A DNA stretch of 64,000 nt from positions 310,001 through 374,000 of the forward strand of contig JAHCKM010000003.1 of the NCBI GenBank assembly GCA_026125795.1, given 5' to 3'. This DNA is from Burkholderiaceae bacterium. GTDB lineage: Bacteria > Pseudomonadota > Gammaproteobacteria > Burkholderiales > Burkholderiaceae_C. Within the stretch, counting starts at the first letter, position 1; each line of letters starts with the position of its first letter. The translations under genes and the position numbers were made by a program. The notes beneath the pieces are model-generated. The model was not told the origin of the DNA, made no database searches, and saw only the letters and a program-made list of their open reading frames with translations. Below, piece after piece: positions 20,131 through 24,937 of this stretch.

Positions 20131-21014
20131 GTGGCATGGCCGAGCTGTCGCAGCGCCACGCGCGGCTGCAGGAAATCAGCGGGATCATGACCGCGATGAA
20201 GAGTCTGTCGCTGGTGGAGGCGCGCAAGCTGGCGCGCTTCATCGGCGAGCAGGCGCGCATGCGCGACAACATCGCGGCGGCGGCGGCGGACTTCCTGCAG
20301 TTCCATCGCGAGATCGGCGCGCGCGACGTGCCTCGCTCCGTGGCCACCCTGGTGCTGATCGGCTCCGAGCGGGGCTTCTGCGGCAACTTCAACGAGCGCA
20401 TCGTGCAGACGCTGGGGCGCTTGGAGTCCGAGCTCGATGCCGCCTCGCTGCTGGTCGTCGGGCATCGGCTGTCGAGCCGCCTTGCCGAGCACGCGCGCGT
20501 CGTGGCGCGCCTCGACGGGCCCACCGTCGCCGAGGACGTTCCGGCCGTGCTGGAGAACCTGGTCGATGCGCTGCACGAGCACGCGAGCGCGGGCTCCGCC
20601 GGGCCTGCGACCCTGCTGTGCCTGGGCCACGACGAGCAAGGCGAACCAGCGCTGACCACGCTGCTGCCGTTGCCGCGTCCCGCAGCGGGCGTGCGTCGCG
20701 GCCATGCGCCCGAGCTGCTGCTGGCCCCGCAGGTGTTCTACGACGAGCTGGTGCAGCAGTTCCTGCTGACCGCGCTGCTCGGGCAGTTCTACACCTCGCT
20801 GGCCGCCGAGAACCACCAGCGGCTGGCCCACATGGAGCGCGCGCTCGACCGCCTCGACCAGACCCTCGCACGCCTGGCACTCAGGCGCAACGCGCTGCGC
20901 CAGGAGCGCATCGTCGAGGAGATCGAAGTCATCCTGTCGAGTGCGATGGCGTTCGATCGGCGTGAAAAGGTTGAAGCGGCGTCGTCGTCCGGAAGGCTCG
21001 AGGAAGAACCATGA
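20127..21014 (+). CDS. atpG: N-type ATPase subunit gamma
   Basis: A 295-residue central-shaft subunit. The N-terminal coiled coil carries LQEISGIMTAMKSLSLVEARKL, equivalent to the conserved ITKAM-MVAA-K. The Rossmann-like middle has IGSERGFCGNFNERI, and the C-terminal helix ends LRQERIVEEIEVILSSAMAF. GTG at 20127 overlaps the alpha stop and has GGGAGG in front. Its own stop overlaps the ATG of rquA by four bases, so the methyltransferase is translated as the last cistron of the ATPase cluster. Confidence 0.9.
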   Translation: MSGMAELSQRHARLQEISGIMTAMKSLSLVEARKLARFIGEQARMRDNIAAAAADFLQFHREIGARDVPRSVATLVLIGSERGFCGNFNERIVQTLGRLESELDAASLLVVGHRLSSRLAEHARVVARLDGPTVAEDVPAVLENLVDALHEHASAGSAGPATLLCLGHDEQGEPALTTLLPLPRPAAGVRRGHAPELLLAPQVFYDELVQQFLLTALLGQFYTSLAAENHQRLAHMERALDRLDQTLARLALRRNALRQERIVEEIEVILSSAMAFDRREKVEAASSSGRLEEEP

Positions 21015-21877
21015 CCGCAGGAATGACCGACGCACGCGATCGTGCCGGGTGCATCCGAAGGGGTCTCGTCCCAACGGGCGATGCAGTGCTTGCCCGCATG
21101 CGGTCTGCCGGCGTGCACCGGTTCACCGCCACGGGTGCGTTGCCTGTTCCGCGCTACCTCGAGCGGCTGTATTGGTGGGCCTACGTCCACCCGGTGGCGG
21201 TGCGGCTGTTCGACCGCGCATGGCTGGTCGATGCCATCCTGTTCGGCAACTTCGCCCGGCTGCGCGACGCGGCGCTGGATGCGCTCGGCGAGACGATCTC
21301 GGGACGTACGCTGCAGGTCGGGTGTGTCTACGGCAACCTGACGCAGCGCTTGCGCGAGCGCTTGACCGGCGACGCGCAGCTCGACGTGGTGGACGTTCTG
21401 CCGGTGCAACTGGAGAACCTCGGCAGGAAGCTGCCGCCCGACGAGCGCGTCGCGCTGCTGCACGGCGACGCGTCGTCGCTCGCCTGCGCCGGTGCGCAGT
21501 ACGACAGGGTGCTGCTGTTCTTCCTGCTCCACGAAATGCCAGAGAACCTGCGCCGCGCGGCGCTCGGCGAAGCCGTACGCGTGCTGAAGCCGGGTGGCAG
21601 GCTGGTGATCGTCGACTACCACCTGCCGTCGCGGCTGCATCCGCTGCGCCCGCTGATGCACCAGGTGTTCCGCCACCTCGAGCCCCACGCCTTCGACCTG
21701 TGGGCGCACAGGGTCGAGCAATTCATGCCGCGCGGCGCGCAGGCCACGTTCGTCAAGCGCACCTACTTCGGCGGCCTGTACCAGAGGCTCGTGTGGACCC
21801 GGCAGGCCGTGTCAGGAGCGAGCGGCGCGGTCGAAAGGTTGATGAACGTCAAGCGTGAGGAAGCGCCACCCAAGTAG
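21011..21877 (+). CDS. rquA: Rhodoquinone biosynthesis methyltransferase-like protein RquA
   Basis: A 288-residue class I SAM-fold protein. It has the RquA-specific segment YLERLYWWAYVHP (residues 49-61), then WLVDAILFGNFARLRDAAL and LQVGCVYGNL (101-110), where the usual Gly-rich SAM loop D-G-G-G is replaced, plus VVDVLPVQLENL and RVLLFFLLHEMPE. In RquA these departures accompany conversion of ubiquinone to the low-potential rhodoquinone by amination; it is not an ordinary methyltransferase. Rhodoquinone supports fumarate-type anaerobic respiration. ATGA overlap with atpG makes co-translation very likely. Confidence 0.85.
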   Translation: MTAGMTDARDRAGCIRRGLVPTGDAVLARMRSAGVHRFTATGALPVPRYLERLYWWAYVHPVAVRLFDRAWLVDAILFGNFARLRDAALDALGETISGRTLQVGCVYGNLTQRLRERLTGDAQLDVVDVLPVQLENLGRKLPPDERVALLHGDASSLACAGAQYDRVLLFFLLHEMPENLRRAALGEAVRVLKPGGRLVIVDYHLPSRLHPLRPLMHQVFRHLEPHAFDLWAHRVEQFMPRGAQATFVKRTYFGGLYQRLVWTRQAVSGASGAVERLMNVKREEAPPK

Positions 21878-21901
21878 TCTGGGCTCTGCGTGGATGAAGA
21901 C

Positions 21902-23471: not shown

Positions 23472-23539
23472 GTGGACATTCGAACACCGATTTCAACCAC
23501 GGACCATCCCCGGTTCGTTCTTCTCGACAGGAGGACCCT

Positions 23540-24937
23540 ATGAACGCTTCGATCCGATGCGCAACCAACCATCCGCGGCGTACCGCGGCGGGAACGCTCG
23601 CGCTCTTGTGGCTTGGGCTCATGGCCCTGTTCTTTGTTGCCGTGCCGAAGGCCCATGCGGTTCCCAGCATGGGGGCGCAGACGGGCCGCGCATGCAGCGG
23701 CTGCCACACGGTCTTTCCGGAGCTCACGCCTTACGGTCGCGAGTTCAAGCTCGGCGGCTTCGCGGCCAGCTCGAGCAAGTGGGACGAGAAGCCGTGGACC
23801 GAGCGGCTGCCGGTCGCCTTCGCGCTGATGGGTTCGCGCACGAGTACGAACAACACGACCGCCGGCGGTGCCTCCGCCGATGAATTTCCGAAGGACCGCA
23901 AGAACGTCGCGCAGACGGTCGCGGGCTACGTCGGCGGCAAGATCTACGACAACGTGGGGGCGCTGATCCAGTACAACTACGACGGCATCGAAAGGCTGTG
24001 GGCGATGGAGATGTTCGATGCCCGCTACGCCAACAGCGTGACGCTGGGAGAGAAGAACCTGGCCTTCGGCGTGACACTCAACAACAATCCCACCGTTTCC
24101 GACCTCTACAACTCCACCCCGGCCTGGGGCTTCCCTCACACGGGTACCGCGGCGCCGCAGATGCCGGCCGCGCCGATCATCGACATGACCCTGGCCAGCA
24201 AGGTCGGCGGCCTGGGCATCTACGGCTTGTGGGATGACCTCGTCTACGTGGAGGTGGCGAACTACCGCACGGCCAAGTCGAGCGGGCTGCGCTTCCTGAG
24301 CTGGGGCCAGCCGTGGAACACCGAGGAACTCGCCGGAAGCCTGGTGCAGGGCGACGCACCGTACTTCCGCCTGGCGCTGCAGAAGGAGGCCAAGCCGCAC
24401 AGCTTCGCGGCCGGCATCTACGGGATGAACGCCAAGATCTTTGCCGATGCGAACGACCAGACCTTGGGAACCAATCGTTTCCGCGATCTGGGCTACGACG
24501 CCAACTACCAATACATCGAAGGCGACCATTCGCTGTCGGTGCGCGCGAACTGGATCCGCGAGAAGCAGACCTGGAACGACGCGGTGGTGAGCGCGGGGCT
24601 GGTCTCCAACCCCACGGACACGCTCAAGACCTTCCGCACCGACGTTCACTACTACTTCCAGCGCCAATGGGGCGGGGGCCTGCAGTACTTCAGGACCACC
24701 GGGAGCGCCGATGACCTTCGGTACAACACCGGCGATGCGCTGTTCGGCAGCAGCAACGGCAGCCCGAACACCAAAGGCTGGACCGCAGAGCTGAACTACC
24801 TGCCGCGGCAGAACATCAAGCTTGCCCTGCGGTACACCAAGTTCCAGCAGTTCAACGGCGCGCGAACCGACTACACGCCGGGCCGCAACGCCTCGGACAA
24901 CAACTACATCTACTTGATGGGCTGGTTGTTGTTCTGA
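23540..24937 (+). CDS. Outer-membrane beta-barrel with N-terminal heme c (Cyc2-like cytochrome-porin)
   Basis: A 465-residue exported protein. After a signal peptide ending AHA (residue 40) comes a single heme motif CSGCH (52-56) in GRACSGCHTVFPELTPYGREFKLGGF. The rest alternates aromatic and polar residues like a beta-barrel and ends with a terminal Phe (YIYLMGWLLF), typical of outer-membrane proteins. The CH-FP-L--FG--FK--G pattern occurs in fused cytochrome-porins such as the iron-oxidase Cyc2 and relatives; the assignment to Cyc2 itself is uncertain. GAGGA precedes the ATG. It would carry electrons across the outer membrane. Confidence 0.7.
   Translation: MNASIRCATNHPRRTAAGTLALLWLGLMALFFVAVPKAHAVPSMGAQTGRACSGCHTVFPELTPYGREFKLGGFAASSSKWDEKPWTERLPVAFALMGSRTSTNNTTAGGASADEFPKDRKNVAQTVAGYVGGKIYDNVGALIQYNYDGIERLWAMEMFDARYANSVTLGEKNLAFGVTLNNNPTVSDLYNSTPAWGFPHTGTAAPQMPAAPIIDMTLASKVGGLGIYGLWDDLVYVEVANYRTAKSSGLRFLSWGQPWNTEELAGSLVQGDAPYFRLALQKEAKPHSFAAGIYGMNAKIFADANDQTLGTNRFRDLGYDANYQYIEGDHSLSVRANWIREKQTWNDAVVSAGLVSNPTDTLKTFRTDVHYYFQRQWGGGLQYFRTTGSADDLRYNTGDALFGSSNGSPNTKGWTAELNYLPRQNIKLALRYTKFQQFNGARTDYTPGRNASDNNYIYLMGWLLF

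Follow-up and report, generated by a model that had tools for sequence, protein, structure and literature searches.

An rquA-cytochrome-porin gene block in a Burkholderiaceae metal-resistance island as a candidate redox arm of copper/silver efflux

Our analysis of a 64,000-nucleotide window from a Burkholderiaceae bacterium (assembly GCA_026125795.1, contig JAHCKM010000003.1, positions 310,001 to 374,000) revealed a gene block in which rquA is followed by genes for an exported protein, a monoheme cytochrome c, a NapC/NirT-type cytochrome and a single-heme barrel protein. Tentatively, and ahead of the alternatives weighed below, we read this block as an electron path that starts at (rhodo)quinol and ends at a single-heme porin, where ions of copper or silver may be reduced. 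The block would in that case be the redox arm of a Cus-type efflux system. With somewhat more reserve we consider it possible that a branch of the Cyc2-type porins has left iron for copper or silver and, together with NapC, the cytochrome c and a dedicated rhodoquinone enzyme, forms an oxygen-independent Cus redox arm that the published Cyc2 motif filter discards. The gene content agrees with a preliminary description of this sequence, in which the copper/silver-type setting of the block had been overlooked. The genes are:

14800..21014, plus strand: alternate (N-type-like) F1F0 ATPase operon (beta, epsilon, AtpR-like, a, c, b, alpha, gamma)
21011..21877, plus strand: rquA, predicted rhodoquinone biosynthesis (NF038261, 280.3 bits, above the cut-off of 175)
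21890..22345 (ATG at 21902), plus strand: small, apparently exported protein whose mature part contains Cys and His, no family match
22470..22817, plus strand: monoheme cytochrome c (CLKCH), likely periplasmic (PF00034, E 9.1e-9)
22857..23471, plus strand: NapC/NirT-type membrane-anchored tetraheme cytochrome, likely quinol dehydrogenase (PF03264, E 8.9e-73)
23540..24937, plus strand: predicted single-heme 16-stranded porin, Cyc2-like (one CSGCH, PEL after three more residues)
24961..25308, plus strand: small lipoprotein-like open reading frame (ORF) starting 23 bp past the barrel gene, no family match

As proposed earlier, rquA is coupled to the ATPase operon, by an ATGA overlap with the stop codon of the gamma gene. 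Asp 125, 128 and 153 of its product are kept in the four RquA rows aligned and may include the counterparts of R. rubrum D118 and D143. The tetraheme protein belongs to the NapC/NirT family (PF03264, 244.1 bits against a gathering score of 24.1), carries four CxxCH motifs and has a hydrophobic stretch, visible in the sequence, as its N-terminal membrane anchor; it scored under the cut-offs of the NCBIfam models TIGR02161 (276 against 310.6 bits) and NF007906 (254 against 349 bits) and is 57-58% identical to two other proteins of the same genome. In scans of ORFs and families, neither the decaheme proteins MtrA and MtrC nor MtrB turned up within the block (20127-25308).

Structure prediction gives the barrel the form of a 16-stranded porin, one of the points that the modelling suggested in the preliminary description was meant to establish. 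Like Cyc2 of Acidithiobacillus, Mariprofundus and Gallionellaceae, for which a 16-stranded porin has likewise been modelled, it has a single N-terminal CXXCH (CSGCH) in a protein of 465 amino acids, where Cyc2 requires at least 365, and a PXL motif four residues further on, which is PEL in the window and is shared by 27/27 rows of the barrel clade described below and 57/58 other rows. A Cyc2 survey additionally demanded PXFAR[Q/K][T/Y] upstream of the heme site (PMC8406198). The window barrel departs from this pattern, with PSMGAQT at that place (AVPSMGAQT instead of A.P.FAR[QK][TY]), and so does its clade, in which the motif occurs in 1/27 rows compared to 50/58 rows elsewhere. By the published motif the protein is not filed as Cyc2; the unit of cytochrome c, NapC and porin should act like a small Cyc2/Mtr conduit. 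Among solved structures, the barrel had no sequence relative at E up to 1, and NapC had none at E up to 0.001.

The evidence for copper or silver comes mainly from the relatives of the barrel. From one scan of species genomes we took the best 80 of 194 barrel loci; in a tree of 85 sequences the window barrel falls with support of 100/100 into a clade of 27 rows (the window and 26 loci), leaving 58 other rows and 54 loci outside. Matches to RND pumps, P-type ATPases, DUF411, Csp-like proteins or multicopper oxidases were found at 21/26 clade loci compared to 7/54 loci outside (p 4e-9; such neighbour p-values are too small, since related loci were treated as independent, though the contrast itself is large), and RND matches alone at 16/26 compared to 3/54. 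Flanks were fetched up to 10 kb, giving mean locus lengths of 16.2 kb inside and 15.4 kb outside the clade, and labels were assigned by phmmer searches seeded with proteins of the window or of the loci, with curated models used for part of them only; some of the multicopper oxidase and P-type matches are weak and need not represent copper genes. The clade is also marked by residues: E151, E157 and M158 occur in 27/27 of its rows and in 1, 0 and 5 of the 58 others, H200 and M216 in 23/27 and H370 in 22/27 clade rows, and position 44 has Met instead of Phe in 18 rows, each of which is a clade member. The five outside rows with M158 are L029, L030, L033, L034 and L045, three of which have RND or P-type matches nearby. 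Met content is 2.66% in the clade and 1.52% in the others (26 and 59 rows, clade member L024 with its broken frame being counted among the others). Met, His and Glu are able to bind copper or silver, but here these residues count as clade markers, which might line the pore.

At six clade loci (L009, L014, L015, L016, L017, L025) the open frame of the barrel starts 38-283 bp after that of CusA on the same strand. One of these, L014, is a metagenome-assembled genome labelled Sideroxydans, whose copper-clade barrel has its open frame 123 bp past that of CusA and might be misread as a gene for iron oxidation. The RND pumps of L009 and L017 also pass the TIGR00914 cut-off. The metal is nevertheless not fixed by the sequence, because CusA/CzcA-type pumps span other specificities and the CusB match in L009 stays below its cut-off (201 against 390); copper or silver is our guess from the company of the clade.

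A cytochrome c and a NapC gene adjoin the barrel in 7/80 loci, all within the clade and in varying order. Zoogloea oleivorans, a cultivable relative, has the order barrel, cytochrome c, NapC. In five further clade loci (L009, L013, L015, L016, L017) a membrane-anchored monoheme cytochrome takes the place of NapC; this cytochrome matches no Pfam family at L017:11350-12135 and L015:11269-12042. At the remaining clade loci we saw no cytochrome partner. Outside the clade a diheme cytochrome adjoins the barrel in 39/54 loci, as is often the case for Cyc2 in iron oxidisers, whereas none was seen at any clade locus. Acetobacteraceae Cyc2 genes have been described as often adjoining mono- or diheme cytochromes that are likely counterparts of Cyc1 (PMC10715153).

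The window itself offers the same company, with the following genes around the block:

7178..10363, plus strand: CusA/CzcA-family heavy-metal RND pump (TIGR00914, 1233.5 bits, above the cut-off of 701.45)
11674..12129, plus strand: DUF411 protein (PF04214, E 1.2e-24)
27883..29439, plus strand: CueO-like multicopper oxidase (Cu-oxidase_3 and Cu-oxidase_2; top NCBIfam match CueO, 415.5 bits, below the cut-off of 525)
30647..31066, plus strand: Cys-rich DUF326 protein (PF03860, E 1.9e-11)
53103..55490, minus strand: copper-type P-type ATPase (TIGR01511, 597.5 bits, cut-off 397), YHS-like N-terminus by eye
62205..63998, minus strand: second copper-type P-type ATPase, continuing beyond the window edge (TIGR01511, 589.2 bits, cut-off 397)

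DUF411 genes often accompany copper genes, and the DUF326 protein resembles copper-storage proteins. Immediately upstream of the window lies an integrase-like gene (L213:18342-19604, contig C3 at about 308.4-309.7 kb) with an Arm-DNA-binding domain above its score and an integrase domain below it, and the window may be where an integrated metal-resistance island begins. Taken together, the RND pump, the two P-type ATPases, the CueO-like oxidase, the DUF411 and DUF326 proteins and the nearby integrase-like gene place the block within an apparent metal-resistance island. Genes of the pyruvate:ferredoxin oxidoreductase type are also found in the island (window positions 32648-34475), hinting at a package for an oxygen-poor lifestyle.

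The same genome holds a second rquA, which is the last gene of an MtrCAB operon. On contig C1 (L146, 1588000-1607900; locus positions 1300-10126) genes for a cytochrome c, a NapC-type protein, an OmcA/MtrC-type decaheme cytochrome (413.6 bits, cut-off 209), a ComEA-like ORF, an MtrA-type decaheme cytochrome (283.6, cut-off 192), MtrB (458.6, cut-off 240), a further cytochrome c and RquA run in one direction. A genome of the same family (G264; L147, 6444-18614) encodes MtrC, MtrA, MtrB and directly RquA, followed by succinate dehydrogenase/fumarate reductase-like genes. Among the 29 other RquA regions of our Burkholderiales sample, only these two carry ORFs of at least 120 amino acids with at least four heme motifs. 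The window RquA is sister to the Mtr-linked RquA of G264 (99/96), the second copy of its own genome joining next (99/93), and the window cytochrome c is 60% identical to the cytochrome that opens the Mtr operon on C1. This RquA kinship and the related cytochrome suggest that the block repeats the donor side of MtrCAB with a single-heme porin as its outer part. A pairing of RquA and MtrB throughout the order was considered and set aside: both exceed their cut-offs in 4/300 genomes (this genome, G103, G152 and G264; 2.4 expected), and the genes are adjacent only in this genome and in G264, which indicates an arrangement at the family level.

We infer that electrons pass between the proteins of the block, outward, from rhodoquinol as donor to Cu(II) or Ag(I) as acceptor. 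The NapC-type protein would oxidise (rhodo)quinol, the monoheme cytochrome c would carry the electrons to the porin heme, and the heme would reduce Cu(II) or Ag(I) that has come into the pore; Cu(II) would become Cu(I) and be exported by CusCBA, or silver would end up as metal. Energy for the efflux pumps would come from the alternate ATPase, and with rhodoquinone the chain would be able to work in the absence of oxygen. The usual reaction of NapC-type proteins is quinol oxidation, and flow in OmcA/MtrC-type pathways is usually outward. We favour outward flow because of the former habit, because of the parts shared with the MtrCAB operon, because rhodoquinol, with a rhodoquinone potential of -63 mV, is a strong donor (PMC11707229), and because NapC is reported, second-hand in a review, as required for silver reduction in silver-resistant E. 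coli (PMC12348928). A reductive Cyc2 pathway, in that case for ferric iron, has been described for acidithiobacilli (PMC10715153).

The same chain might also run in reverse, the porin heme oxidising Cu(I) expelled by CusCBA and the electrons flowing inward, by way of the cytochrome c and then NapC, into the quinone pool; the chain would then do without oxygen what the multicopper oxidase of the island does. We hold this to be rather unlikely, and it stands close behind the outward reading. CusCBA exports Cu(I), whose potential suits a heme at +208 mV, and multicopper oxidase genes occur both in the window and at L002, the locus of the closest relative. The Cyc2 relatives of the barrel are oxidases, with +208 mV given for Cyc2PV-1 (PMC8406198). 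Inward flow would run counter to the usual direction of NapC-type proteins and would feed into rhodoquinone, which at -63 mV is a poor acceptor (PMC11707229), and through the related cytochrome and rquA the block is connected with an operon whose terminal cytochrome is of the OmcA/MtrC type.

The conduit proposed in the preliminary description, which had allowed for iron oxidation in the reverse direction, is partly supported: it gains from the porin model, the recurrence of cytochrome c, NapC and barrel, rquA near the barrel in three other genomes and the related MtrCAB-rquA operon, and loses in that the commonest company of the clade is copper/silver-type genes and not iron metabolism. Iron oxidation as the main role was accordingly lowered, these genes being the commonest clade neighbours and the partner not being a diheme cytochrome. 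In a broader form, the block would serve extracellular respiration or the oxidation of iron, as a small conduit of the MtrCAB kind for Fe(III), electrodes or Fe(II), with the copper genes as chance company; we regard this as unlikely. Its make-up is partly shared with the MtrCAB-rquA operon of the genome, its RquA is sister to an Mtr-linked copy, the barrel has a Cyc2-like architecture, and two clade loci with rquA nearby (L007, L022) have no copper genes in the fetched flanks. Such a role fits poorly with the copper-type company throughout the barrel clade, the lack of the published Cyc2 motif in 26/27 clade rows and the fact that a diheme partner was seen at none of the clade loci. Cyc2-type porins serve as genomic markers of iron oxidation, and a clade keeping other metal company and using another inner-membrane partner would warn against such a reading.

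The pairing of rquA with the barrel does not look fixed. RquA exceeded its cut-off in 8/24 clade genomes, three of the eight being Aromatoleum, compared to 4/50 others (p 0.015); this search left out L004 and L037, and the control covered 50 of the 54 outside loci, L048 and L081 being left out and L026 and L028 giving no match in a separate search. In three of the eight genomes (L007, L012, L022) rquA lies 1-3.2 kb from the barrel, against about 0.03 for chance by a rough hand estimate, and the two do not form one operon. Since L007 and L022 hold a distant RquA type, at least two separate joinings of rquA and barrel are indicated. The gene order given in the preliminary description is thus conserved in part: cytochrome c, NapC and barrel recur in the seven loci mentioned, and three other genomes have rquA close to the barrel, but the genome of L002 gave no rquA match. 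The cytochrome c-NapC-porin unit recurs, mostly in copper/silver-type islands, and its pairing with rquA is rare and not unique.

It is improbable, the more so than any of the above alternatives, that there is no functional unit at all and that rquA belongs to a low-oxygen package with the ATPase operon, cytochrome c, NapC and barrel being a separate unit of the copper island. A 124-bp gap ahead of the cytochrome c gene, the occurrence of the trio in L002 with no rquA match in that genome and the pyruvate:ferredoxin oxidoreductase genes nearby would fit such a division. The predicted fold of the gap is unremarkable (z -1.37). The proximity of rquA to barrels in three more genomes, two with the distant RquA type, speaks for a tie between them, and the ATPase was found in none of the 29 other RquA regions, some of which are cut by contig ends, so that rquA seems to be no usual part of this ATPase operon.

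Several observations weigh against copper or silver reduction by a rquA-supplied chain. Turning Cu(II) into the more toxic Cu(I) would be useful only if export keeps pace, and neighbourhood alone is weak evidence, because metal islands gather unrelated genes. Five of the 26 clade loci have no metal label (L007, L011, L013, L018, L022), the fetched flanks of L007 and L022 being those already named as free of copper genes, and 19/26, some of them at contig ends, show no NapC beside the barrel. The closest relative, L002, with a barrel 78% identical, has kept cytochrome c, NapC, barrel and ATPase without any RquA match in its genome, and two further family members with the barrel gave no RquA match in a search in which no control gave a match either. 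The co-occurrence of RquA and barrel that the preliminary description had suggested looking for in Burkholderiales did not emerge: in counts made by eye, with barrels of the broad family, barrels were found in 52/300 genomes, RquA in 28/300 and both in 3/300 compared to 4.9 expected, and we dropped an order-wide pair. Finally, characterised Cyc2 proteins are iron oxidisers (PMC8406198).

Among known systems, Cyc2 differs from the window in its partner, a c4-type diheme cytochrome in place of NapC with a monoheme cytochrome, and in lacking the copper/silver-type efflux company. MtrCAB/MtoAB with CymA shares the NapC-type anchor with the block, and the MtrCAB operon of this genome also shares a related monoheme cytochrome and rquA; the block differs in having neither decaheme MtrA and MtrC nor MtrB. 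The barrel has genes of the CusCFBA/CueO type as neighbours, both here and across much of its clade, and to our knowledge these systems as described include no cytochrome chain. In the silver reduction of a silver-resistant E. coli strain, NapC is reported to hand quinol electrons to Ag(I), and no porin-cytochrome or rquA is mentioned in the excerpts of the review (PMC12348928). Literature searches yielded no paper for rhodoquinone with MtrB or with N-ATPase, papers on other topics by their titles for rhodoquinone with extracellular electron transfer, and no description of a pairing of rquA with Cyc2, rquA being absent from the main text of the papers examined. In excerpts of the literature on Cyc2 with copper resistance and efflux, copper was tied to multicopper oxidases and not to Cyc2, and the words copper and silver are absent from the main text of the Cyc2 survey (PMC8406198). 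If our favoured reading is true, copper/silver resistance gains a respiratory, oxygen-independent arm, and part of an iron-oxidising protein family has turned to metal resistance. In this genome rquA is joined to an outer-membrane electron path twice, in the block and in MtrCAB, and these joinings provide a testable case of rhodoquinone serving outer-membrane or extracellular electron transfer, beyond fumarate respiration.

Close relatives of the barrel (E 1e-120) occur in only 3/299 genomes of the same family. Nine plasmid records carry barrel relatives, all below 60% identity, with a c-type cytochrome gene downstream in the four inspected; a DNA search of plasmids with the block gave 193 records, none spanning 80% of it, and the ten displayed cover ATPase or NapC pieces. 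A barrel copy in L233 (G634, C2:605000-624900; about 9460-10750) is interrupted by a stop codon in frame, shows no cytochrome partners in its vicinity and seems decayed. The contig of the window encodes an 80-bit relative of the small exported protein some 51 kb further downstream (L214:8833-9279).

The ATPase operon stays below the NCBIfam cut-offs (TIGR03305, best for beta, 564.2 against 752 bits; TIGR03324, 584.9 against 750.5 bits), with PF09527 and PF00137 being found above theirs; we call it N-type-like because its gene order, as we take it, fits that type although these cut-offs were missed. Another ATPase beta of the genome, on contig C4, is 48% identical. In the window and at 4/26 clade loci (L002, L015, L016, L025), no more than 3 kb separate the barrel from an alternate ATPase. 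In L016 (9491-11008) and L025 (11742-13307) the beta subunit has an N-terminal YHS domain (PF04945, above the cut-off) and sits between the CusA-barrel pair and the remaining alternate ATPase operon, which suggests a further tie between ATPase and metal stress, since inspection by eye places a YHS domain on copper P-type ATPases here as well.

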